A DNA stretch of 64,000 nucleotides, from contig AGIF02000001.1 in the NCBI GenBank assembly GCA_000227505.4, positions 62,001 to 126,000 on the forward strand, written 5' to 3'. This DNA is from a gamma proteobacterium HIMB55. Its GTDB lineage: Bacteria > Pseudomonadota > Gammaproteobacteria > Pseudomonadales > Halieaceae. A program made the translations under genes and the position numbers. This document shows positions 84 to 14,840 of this stretch, in pieces (the stretch's first letter is position 1; each line of letters begins with the position of its first letter). The notes under the pieces were generated by a model. That model saw only the letters and a program-made list of their open reading frames with translations, was not told where the DNA came from and ran no database searches.

Positions 84-1493
84 CTAGCGTAGAACTTTTA
101 TCCAATCACCGGTTCGCGGCTCGCCACCAGGGTAGTAGCCGTTGATAAGGCGCAGCTGGTTTTCAGCATCGGGAATCCGAATGCCGGTACTTAAGGAAGC
201 GAAAGTGGCCCCGCGAGGCACTTGAACGTAGGTCAGTGTCAAACTCTCTCCGCGCTTTTTCTCTTTCGGGAACAGTGGGCGAAAGGAGGTAATGATGGTT
301 TTAAAAGCCTCGTCTGCGCCGGCGAAGTTGGTGGCCTCGCCCTCGAACAGGTAGCGAAAGCGGTAGTCCACAATACCGAGGCGTTTTTGAACACCGCCTG
401 CACTGGCAAGACCGGTCGCGCCCTTGAGCCCCTGGTTTTCCGTCTCTTCTTGCGCGCTTATCTCGCCTGTCGCAAGGCTGGGTAGCGCAGTTGCTGGATC
501 TGCCTCAGGGTCGATCTTCGCGATCTTAATGGTGAGCGCAGCATCCGAATTGGGAGCGCGCGCGACTATTTCGCGAGTGTTTGCGGTGACTTTCCAGCCT
601 TCAGGATGCTCAAACGTAAAGTCGAGCTTGTTGTGGTAATACCGTAGTGGGTCGCTTTGGGCTTCCGCACTTGCACCTACAACCATCCCCTCAGTTTCTC
701 GTCTGAAGCGGCCCGGCAGCTCTGGGTCATCGGCCATAGTGTCAAAATCGAGTGTGTTAGCGGTTTTGATCACTGTCTGCAGGCGTAAATCATTACGCGG
801 GTGGCTGGCGTATAGACCGTGATAGGTGCCCGAGGGTTTGCCCGCCGCTTTTGCCGCTGCTTTTCGGTAACGCTCCTGATCTTTTAGTACGCCGATCACA
901 GATAACAAGGCGTCGGCGTCGTAACCACTTTTGTGCATGATCTCCGCACCCTCGGCATCCGCCTCCAACTCCATTTCGCGGCCAAAGCCCGAGACGAGTT
1001 CGGCACCGTACATGTTGGTCGCGTCGTATAGATCGCCTGATCGGGTCAGGATGAGTGCTGTGACCGCAACCGCTTGCGTAGTGAGTTGTTGCGTGCGTCG
1101 CCGCGAGTGGTGTCGCTCTGTAATGTGGGCGATCTCGTGGGCAATGACACCCGCCAGCTCGGCCTCAGTGTTGAGGTAGGCCAGCAGTCCGCGGTTGATG
1201 TAAATCATCCCGCCCGGCAAAGCGAAGGCGTTGATGTCCGGTGAATCGAGCAGTGTGAAGGTGAATTCCTCGTCCGCGAGACTCGAGTTGGCGACCAAGC
1301 GATCTGCAATTTCATTGACGTACGCCGCAAGTTCGGGGTCGTCATATATACCGACATTCTCAATGAGCTTCTCGTGCTCGTCGGCGGCCTTCTTCGGCAT
1401 GCTCACCGGACGACCACCCACAGTAACGGTGGACGATCCCGCGCAGGCGACCAGAAACATCGTTGCCAGTATTACGGTGAGCAGTCGCGTCAT
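84..1493 (-). CDS. M48 family metalloprotease lipoprotein (BepA/LoiP-like)
   Basis: 469 aa. The N-terminus is a lipoprotein signal with Cys17 (LVAC), so it should be anchored in the envelope. The zinc site HEIAH lies near residues 119-123 and the third-ligand region EMELEADA near 173-180, the standard M48 arrangement. Residues about 285-400 form a second, non-peptidase domain, and the last 50 residues (from YVQVPRGATF to GDWIKVLR) resemble the C-terminal extension of periplasmic M48 quality-control proteases. It is the last complete gene of the minus-strand envelope cluster, 3 bp after the stop of the preceding lipoprotein gene, suggesting it processes or clears components of that machine. 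The protease family is clear from the motif; the substrate is unknown. Confidence 0.9.
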   Translation of the reverse strand: MTRLLTVILATMFLVACAGSSTVTVGGRPVSMPKKAADEHEKLIENVGIYDDPELAAYVNEIADRLVANSSLADEEFTFTLLDSPDINAFALPGGMIYINRGLLAYLNTEAELAGVIAHEIAHITERHHSRRRTQQLTTQAVAVTALILTRSGDLYDATNMYGAELVSGFGREMELEADAEGAEIMHKSGYDADALLSVIGVLKDQERYRKAAAKAAGKPSGTYHGLYASHPRNDLRLQTVIKTANTLDFDTMADDPELPGRFRRETEGMVVGASAEAQSDPLRYYHNKLDFTFEHPEGWKVTANTREIVARAPNSDAALTIKIAKIDPEADPATALPSLATGEISAQEETENQGLKGATGLASAGGVQKRLGIVDYRFRYLFEGEATNFAGADEAFKTIITSFRPLFPKEKKRGESLTLTYVQVPRGATFASLSTGIRIPDAENQLRLINGYYPGGEPRTGDWIKVLR

Positions 1494-1496
1494 GAA

Positions 1497-13326: not shown

Positions 13327-14840
13327 GTTGAAGTCTCCACGACCGAATCGTAGGGCGATGCCCAATGTTCTGGGCCAAATACCCAAGTGATGGGCTCGCT
13401 TTCTATTGGCTCGCCCGCTTCGAATACAGGTCTAAATCGGAGTCGTCGCAACCGTCTCAAGACACGATCTGGGCTACGTGGACCCGCCGACTCAGGTACC
13501 TGCACACGTTCTAGATTATCAACTTTACCGTTAGCGTTAACGGTAAAAGTCACAATGAGATCCGCTTCTGTTGCGGGCTCTGTTTTCACCTTAAGTACAG
13601 GGTCAAACCCTGCAATGGCAGGAAGCGGTACCGGTGTCTCTAGTATACGAAACGTGGGGAATTTCTCCGTCGCTGAATCGCCATCTGCTACCTCGGCTTC
13701 TGCTATTTGTTGGGACGCTTCGTCACTGGCCGAAACTGTCGTATCGGCAACACTGGCTTCCGAGTCGGCATTTGCCAAAGCCTCTGGGTTGCTCGCCACA
13801 GAGTCAACAGGCTCATTTTGTGTCGCCTCGGCAGTTTCACTGTGGGCTAATGAGTCATCGGATAAGGTATCAACGGTTTCCTCCGCCGCACTTTCTTCAA
13901 CTGAAGCTTCCTCTTCAGCCGCATTTTCCTCACTTGCACCACTAGTGGGTGCCAAGGCGTTTTTAACATCTTCTTCGCCCGCGAGTTCAGCGGTTGCCGC
14001 GGGTCCCCGGTTTAACACTTCCCCGTTTGCTAGCTTGATGGCATCGCCGTAAAACTCGAATGCGAAGTTGCGATTGCCTGTCCACCACGCCCAATCTCCC
14101 ATGCGGATGAGGTCCTCGGCTTGGACCTCGCGACTTGCAACTAAGCGATCACGATTGAGTTGCTGCATCGCAATGAGAAGTGAAATGCCTCGTTTAAAGA
14201 CGGCTTTTGACTGACTAGGGGAGGTGCGCTCGCGGCGCATATTACCTGGCATAGCACCCCCGACACCTTGGTGGCCTGCCAGTAAATATTGTGCGCGAAC
14301 CATACCGTGAAGCGCTGGCAGGAGCTCGGCGGAGCTCTCTCCGTAAGTTGCGACGGATTCGTTTAGTGCTCTGCGATAAAAATTCCAGGCTTTGCCCATC
14401 CTCGCCTGAATGGCTTCTTCTTCATCGATATCTTCAAGAAGCGCGTATTGATGCCACTCCGCCTGCTTCAGTAAGGCATCGATTTTTTCAGGGCCCGAGG
14501 GCAGTACCTGCTTTTCGATTCTGGAGAGGTAGGTGTGACGCTCGTCTGCAAGGCCCAGTTCGCCGAGCGCTCGATAGCTCTGAATTTCAGCTCTTACATA
14601 GGGTAGTTGGCTGGCTGCATTTAGTCCGTCGCTAATCCGGCTGAGATGTGTGGCCCTCTTCAGAACAGGGATAGCCTCTTCATGACGGCCTTGAATTTGA
14701 AGCTCAATAGCGGTGTTCCACAACGACTCTTGTTGTCGTGGGTCGTAAGCACCGTACACGGCCGTGTTAGCCCATGTCGCTGAGGCGCCAGTGGCTGCGA
14801 GTGCGATCGTTATTGCGAGACTAATCGAAAGCGTTTTCAC
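13323..14840 (-). CDS. periplasmic protein with C-terminal TonB-like domain, first gene of the envelope cluster
   Basis: 505 aa, GTG start at 14838-14840 with AGAGGA about 8 nt upstream. It has a cleavable signal peptide (MKTLSISLAITIALAATGASA). Residues about 30-270 are helical and TPR-like (AIELQIQGRHEEAIPVLKRA). An acidic, Ala/Glu/Ser-rich linker (about 285-385) leads to a TonB C-terminal-type domain (about 400-490: LIVTFTVNANGKVDNLERVQ, RLRRLRFRPVFEAGEP). Unlike TonB it has no uncleaved N-terminal anchor, so it should be free in the periplasm. It is the promoter-proximal gene of the cluster. The TonB-C fold suggests contact with an outer-membrane partner or peptidoglycan; the partner is unknown. 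Confidence 0.83.
   Translation of the reverse strand: MKTLSISLAITIALAATGASATWANTAVYGAYDPRQQESLWNTAIELQIQGRHEEAIPVLKRATHLSRISDGLNAASQLPYVRAEIQSYRALGELGLADERHTYLSRIEKQVLPSGPEKIDALLKQAEWHQYALLEDIDEEEAIQARMGKAWNFYRRALNESVATYGESSAELLPALHGMVRAQYLLAGHQGVGGAMPGNMRRERTSPSQSKAVFKRGISLLIAMQQLNRDRLVASREVQAEDLIRMGDWAWWTGNRNFAFEFYGDAIKLANGEVLNRGPAATAELAGEEDVKNALAPTSGASEENAAEEEASVEESAAEETVDTLSDDSLAHSETAEATQNEPVDSVASNPEALANADSEASVADTTVSASDEASQQIAEAEVADGDSATEKFPTFRILETPVPLPAIAGFDPVLKVKTEPATEADLIVTFTVNANGKVDNLERVQVPESAGPRSPDRVLRRLRRLRFRPVFEAGEPIESEPITWVFGPEHWASPYDSVVETST

Follow-up and report, generated by a model that had tools for sequence, protein, structure and literature searches.

A conserved gammaproteobacterial operon for a putative trans-envelope machine with a TolQ-like ring and a pair of VWA proteins

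The window analysed here is a stretch of 64,000 nucleotides from the marine gammaproteobacterium HIMB55, whose genome, a single contig of 2.74 Mb, is of the Luminiphilus type (Halieaceae). It carries thirteen genes running from position 14840 down to 84, all on the minus strand, in agreement with the original prediction that had been made from the sequence of the window. The genes were lettered in transcription order as T, S, L, R, P, s, B, K, V1, V2, l11, l12 and M, where S, L, R, P, B, V1 and V2 constitute a core of seven genes, and T, s, K, l11, l12 and M are six accessory genes.

We annotated 129 loci with iterated profiles, the nearest named ones being from Luminiphilus and other Halieaceae. 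A second, divergent operon (L044) was set aside, leaving 128 loci for the counts of gene order; all locus counts include at least 13 contigs entered twice, once named and once unnamed. The seven core genes were present in one order and on one strand in 90 of the 128 loci (named loci, 52/80; same genus, 14/16; other families of the order, 3/3; class sample, 16/23; a second, non-gammaproteobacterial class, 5/6), covering 15 gammaproteobacterial families besides the named loci, plus a single family from the second class. The genes therefore do recur together elsewhere, the opposite of what would have refuted the original prediction. All thirteen genes were present in 63 of the 128 loci, with one order and strand in 62 and an inverted T in the remaining one (L167). 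The view of the operon as one conserved unit thus held, but that of a fixed set of thirteen did not, and was replaced by the core of seven genes with six accessories.

Among the other 38 loci, 34 appeared to be cut by the locus ends, either because a core gene lay less than 800 bases from the end (32 loci, by distance alone) or because the contig ended just past K (L106 and L109). Only four (L176, L179, L180 and L210) truly differed. L176 contained all seven core genes with B placed after V2, and neither L nor B was found in L179. In L180 (5163-6254), an integrase-core gene, of insertion sequence type as judged by eye, sits between R and a shortened P, and L was not found in the locus. L210 (1783-4570) represents the smallest form seen, consisting of B, V1 and V2 amid unrelated genes, with no S, L, R or P. 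The divergent operon that had been set aside (L044, 936-8979, from HTCC2080) comprises L, R, P, B, V1 and V2, with a Gly-rich protein in the position of S; none of K, T, l11, l12 and M was detected in this operon, and the HTCC2080 genome also carries the full operon.

B was detected (E <= 1e-10) in 29 of 37 genomes of the genus, including its own, and in 12/12 of those that were at least 90% complete, as well as in 3 of 21 genomes from other families of the order. Matches to the V2 profile were obtained in 73/293 genomes of the order, 27/370 of the class (spread over 15 families), 12/397 of the phylum (7 of them from one non-gammaproteobacterial family) and 11/66 of the second class. Spread by mobile elements was also considered, and V2 had no match in plasmids or phages. 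When 37 selected loci were compared, flanking genes varied between families, indicating that the unit ends with the operon, and no neighbour cluster recurred in more than 3 of these loci beyond T and M. In a tree built from 39 selected loci, in which the inverted T was scored as present and L044 fell on a long branch, two changes each were counted for K, T, l11, l12 and M, and four for s. With the second class as the outgroup, the history of the operon is read as that of a core that later gained parts.

The protein encoded by B (6193..7011) is a member of the MotA_ExbB family, with a Pfam score of 52 bits that lies over the cut-off, and has TolQ as the best match. Two threonines, T195 and T228, were constant in 129/129 rows (residue counts skip open reading frames shorter than 300 residues for V1, 270 for V2, 200 for B and 350 for K). 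A HMMER alignment of B to the solved TolQ (E 0.08), with positions counted by hand, places T195 and T228 opposite T145 and T178, the channel threonines of TolQ. A threonine ring is described as essential by Williams-Jones et al. (2025, PMC12204202).

The products of V1 (3803..4894) and V2 (2805..3812) each start with a hydrophobic helix, read from the sequence and mostly of the form SFLDxxxCGFGA, which is followed by a coiled coil and by a VWA domain with residues of the metal-ion-dependent adhesion site (MIDAS) type in V1 and a VWA-like domain in V2. The aspartate of the helix was found in 116/121 rows for V1 (Asp17), the other 5 being gaps, and in 115/115 rows for V2 (Asp19). By our own reading, the MIDAS-type positions D171, S173, S175, T266 and D290 of V1, and D161, S163, S165 and D260 of V2, were constant or nearly so. 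Searches of PDB sequences with V1 and V2 returned chiefly coiled coils and, for V2, also weak matches to integrin I-domains. Phylogenetic analysis of 27 rows of each protein from 27 loci separated V1 and V2 into two lineages, split by one branch and a single change (Shimodaira-Hasegawa-like approximate likelihood ratio test, SH-aLRT, 100), and the pair is therefore older than the sampled families, unless it was spread by transfer.

B is one of six ring proteins encoded in the genome, and each of the other five has an axle gene next to its own. These sets are TolQ-TolR within a tol-pal operon, ExbB-ExbD, two ExbB with two ExbD, and MotA-MotB, with MotB and the tol genes recognised by eye. The tol-pal operon, read as ybgC-tolQRAB-pal-cpoB, lies at about 1977200-1982300 of the genome contig (C1). 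The Ton-type cluster of two ExbB and two ExbD genes is seen, by eye, at about 2384000-2386000 of the same contig, and the separate ExbBD pair near 1075000 adjoins MsbA- and LpxK-like genes, also by eye. As had been predicted, the operon is thus distinct from Tol-Pal, ExbBD, Ton-type and Mot systems, for which the cell has its own genes elsewhere. The original prediction had raised the possibility that B pairs with an unlinked ExbD; all four ExbD of the genome adjoin other ExbB/TolQ genes instead. When these four ExbD/TolR proteins were compared with the 10,266 open reading frames of the 129 loci, no match was obtained, and the positive control (each other) was found. With filters off, the top match in the loci was to a V2 protein (E 0.68) and does not count as evidence on its own.

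The proposal that two VWA proteins stand in for ExbD beside an ExbB/TolQ-like channel is therefore upheld by the conserved channel threonines, the conserved aspartates of the helices and the absence of ExbD from the loci. Since no ExbD was found near B, and every other motor of the genome has its own axle, B together with V1 and V2 would, with high probability, constitute a 5:2-type ion motor having a V1:V2 heterodimer as the axle. The VWA proteins had earlier been taken for stators, but a helix that bears an aspartate points to an axle inside the ring.

The remaining core genes encode proteins that could connect such a motor to the outer membrane. A lipobox pattern scan of the orthologues, with proteins not taken as lipoproteins as the control, detected a lipobox in S (74/102), L (96/106), l11 (88/93), l12 (67/89) and M (51/79), against control rates of 8/81 for T, 13/111 for s, 9/123 for P and 3/114 for R. 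Wherever the pattern was found in the five lipoproteins, the residue at +2 was never Asp. S (12139..13386, with a likely start near 13326) has a long Ser/Gly-rich linker and a strongly conserved C-terminal helix, and its sequence is that of a tether-like lipoprotein. Structures were predicted for L and K, and in a fold search the N-domain of L (10949..12139) resembled FlgT, PelC, the N-domain of TolB and CsgG; its C-terminus is modelled, at low confidence, as a glycine-rich helical hairpin. R (9369..10931) is a TPR protein with a single membrane helix and a conserved C-terminal domain. P (7303..9393, with a likely start near 9369) also has a single membrane helix, together with PEGA domains and a head that resembles formylglycine-generating enzyme (FGE)/SUMF1. 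Formylglycine-generating enzymes use a copper-binding pair of cysteines, but the head in the window protein has one cysteine, and no cysteine was conserved at the end of the domain in 126 rows. We therefore regard the head as a one-Cys FGE-like fold that is probably inactive, judging from its sequence.

Of the accessory genes, K (4898..6196) encodes a protein whose residues 1-306 adopt, in the predicted structure, the fold of the Hsp70 nucleotide-binding domain. This likeness was evident only in the fold search, and K had no Hsp70 match by sequence in Pfam, NCBIfam or PDB sequences. Compared with the phosphate-loop motif of Hsp70, the loops of K are degenerate, and the second loop, placed by eye, mostly reads E/D-L-Q-L-x-Q in 109 rows instead of being Gly-rich. 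No substrate-binding domain was seen in the model, which ends in a small beta-domain that is perhaps FHA-like, a lead provided by matches to EssC, YukB and KIF13B at E 0.34-0.5. K thus looks like a degenerate Hsp70-type domain in its predicted model. T (13323..14840) is exported, with a TPR-like N-terminus, an acidic linker and a TonB-C-like C-terminus, and scored 12.8 bits with TonB_C and 17.1 bits with the AgmX/PglI tail, both under the cut-off. The small exported protein s (7008..7358) has a variable linker and a conserved tail, ISED.SVSFPVDI; it varies except in the last dozen residues, and the FPVDI terminus was present in 88 of 111 orthologues. The lipoproteins l11 (2153..2845) and l12 (1497..2183) belong to no Pfam family, and M (84..1493) is an M48 metalloprotease lipoprotein.

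A thioesterase-like gene on the plus strand and a gene for gamma-glutamyltranspeptidase (GGT) flank the operon at 14991-17514 of the window. One or both were present in 51 of the 129 loci. These were exclusively Halieaceae, same-genus or only broadly named records, and neither gene occurred in the Microbulbifer, Exilibacterium or class-sample loci among the 129. Because their recurrence is limited in this way, these two genes were not counted as parts of the machine.

Taken together, we consider it likely that the operon encodes a force-generating machine that spans the envelope, built on a 5:2-type ion motor of a B ring and a V1:V2 axle, with partners at the outer membrane. We infer its stoichiometry, proton drive, rotation, contacts and cellular role as follows. 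B would assemble into an inner-membrane channel ring, and one V1 and one V2 would make up a heterodimeric axle by inserting their Asp-bearing N-terminal helices into its pore. Protons passing Asp17 of V1, Asp19 of V2 and Thr195 and Thr228 of B would turn the axle, which would then swing two coiled-coil stalks, carrying adhesion-type VWA heads with metal sites, in the periplasm. R and P, with one membrane helix each, could provide a periplasmic frame, with the FGE head of P, probably inactive, used for binding. The likely load of the motor would be the outer-membrane lipoproteins L and S, where L may be a receptor of the TolB-N/PelC/FlgT type, perhaps a ring, and S a flexible cord of ~300 residues whose conserved C-terminal helix may reach back to the motor or the frame. 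K would be a clamp or switch in the cytoplasm, s would dock through its tail, and T, l11, l12 and the M48 protein would service the outer membrane.

On balance, we favour the outer membrane as the place where the machine works. That K gates the ring and S acts as a cord is a tentative assignment, more doubtful than the motor itself. A layout opposite to that of TolA and TonB, where an axle with two unlike metal-site adhesion heads grips the inner end of the S cord, itself anchored in the outer membrane, and pulls on an L ring there, with the pseudo-Hsp70 K gating the ring, is possible but speculative. We know of no earlier ion motor controlled by a pseudo-Hsp70, nor of an Hsp70-type domain linked to an ion motor. 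A role in defence was also considered; the PADLOC matches were weak only.

A secretion or gliding machine, similar to the PorKLMN/GldKLMN motor of the type IX secretion system (T9SS) or to the myxococcal Agl-Glt machinery, would use the motor to export a substrate encoded elsewhere, or to drive its movement at the surface. VWA, TPR and TolQ-like proteins and lipoproteins are all parts of such machines. The best score of the P head against NCBIfam was with GldK/PorK, the tail of T has a weak match to the AgmX/PglI domain (17 bits), and section 8 of PMC12204202 ties another vWA family to gliding. However, P reached only 94 bits against a GldK cut-off of 350, and models of GldL, GldM and GldN had no match at E up to 0.1 in the 10 of 13 proteins scanned (l11, l12 and M lay outside the scan). 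General upkeep of the outer membrane fits somewhat better than secretion, because in the 37 loci compared none of the recurring neighbours of the operon encodes a translocon or a substrate (a comparison of flanking genes, with no search for unlinked ones), and we regard a secretion or gliding machine as unlikely.

It is similarly improbable that the operon encodes a non-rotating scaffold or sensor across the envelope, where a relic of a channel would hold V1 and V2, the VWA heads would bind metal-dependent ligands and K would report to the cytoplasm. The likeness of K to a degenerate Hsp70 domain devoid of a chaperone part, and the near constancy of the MIDAS-type residues of V1, would suit such a device, but both TolQ-type channel threonines and both axle aspartates are constant wherever present, and a scaffold would have no need of them. 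That the operon forms an additional energiser of the Tol-Pal or Ton-like kind, working with a borrowed classical ExbD or TolR, is very improbable, since, despite the membership of B in MotA_ExbB and its best match to TolQ, no ExbD relative was found in the loci, those of the genome all adjoin other ring genes, and a separate tol-pal operon, read from open reading frames, is present.

To our knowledge, few ion-driven motors acting across the bacterial envelope are known, and the unit described here is conserved in many Gammaproteobacteria, was given no function in the literature covered, and is set apart from Tol, Ton and Mot by its axle and by its set of partners. With Tol-Pal it shares a ring subunit with channel threonines, an L N-domain resembling that of TolB and, as we infer, work at the outer membrane, but no TolR, TolA, TolB propeller or Pal match was found in the operon with Pfam, and the cell has its own tol-pal. 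Unlike TonB-ExbBD, the operon is without an ExbD partner. As in the T9SS, a 5:2-type motor would stand next to an FGE-fold protein, whereas P carries PEGA domains and a membrane helix and falls far under the GldK cut-off, and GldL and GldM were not matched by the 10 of 13 proteins scanned. ZorAB of the Zorya system is a MotA/ExbB-type ring with a modified axle, but the match to ZorA was only 13.3 bits, and no ZorB or other Zorya protein was detected in the 10 of 13 proteins scanned. K shares the nucleotide-binding-domain fold with Hsp70/DnaK, and differs in its replaced phosphate-loop residues and in a model that has no substrate-binding domain.

The closest likeness is to the TolQ-like/TPH-vWA pair motors reported by Williams-Jones et al. 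(2025, PMC12204202), who described tolQ-like genes accompanied by heterologous vWA gene pairs whose products bear a membrane helix, without tolR or exbD, and presented AlphaFold 3 models with two vWA helices inside a TolQ pentamer (section 8). Both have a tolQ-like gene, two different vWA genes and a pore-helix aspartate, and lack TolR/ExbD, a likeness of gene arrangement and not of sequences compared with their Idiomarina members. The motor type has thus been described before, and the motor part of the machine, for which the original prediction recognised no name, would belong to it. In the accessible text and legend of that paper, this family is given no PEGA/FGE, TPR, Hsp70-like, lipoprotein or M48 partner (the drawing in Fig. 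4c aside); its section 8 gives a TPR partner for a different vWA family only, and PEGA and SUMF1 have 0 occurrences each in the accessible text. The accessible part of a 2026 review (PMC12905483) makes no mention of vWA, and titles and abstract openings in the open literature, preprints aside, yielded no other paper on this gene set. Relative to PMC12204202, the present analysis adds the conserved seven-gene core, the Hsp70-type domain of K, the fold of L, the one-Cys head of P and the tether-like S, and for a motor type earlier known from gene neighbourhoods and models, the defined core names the genes and proteins that belong together.
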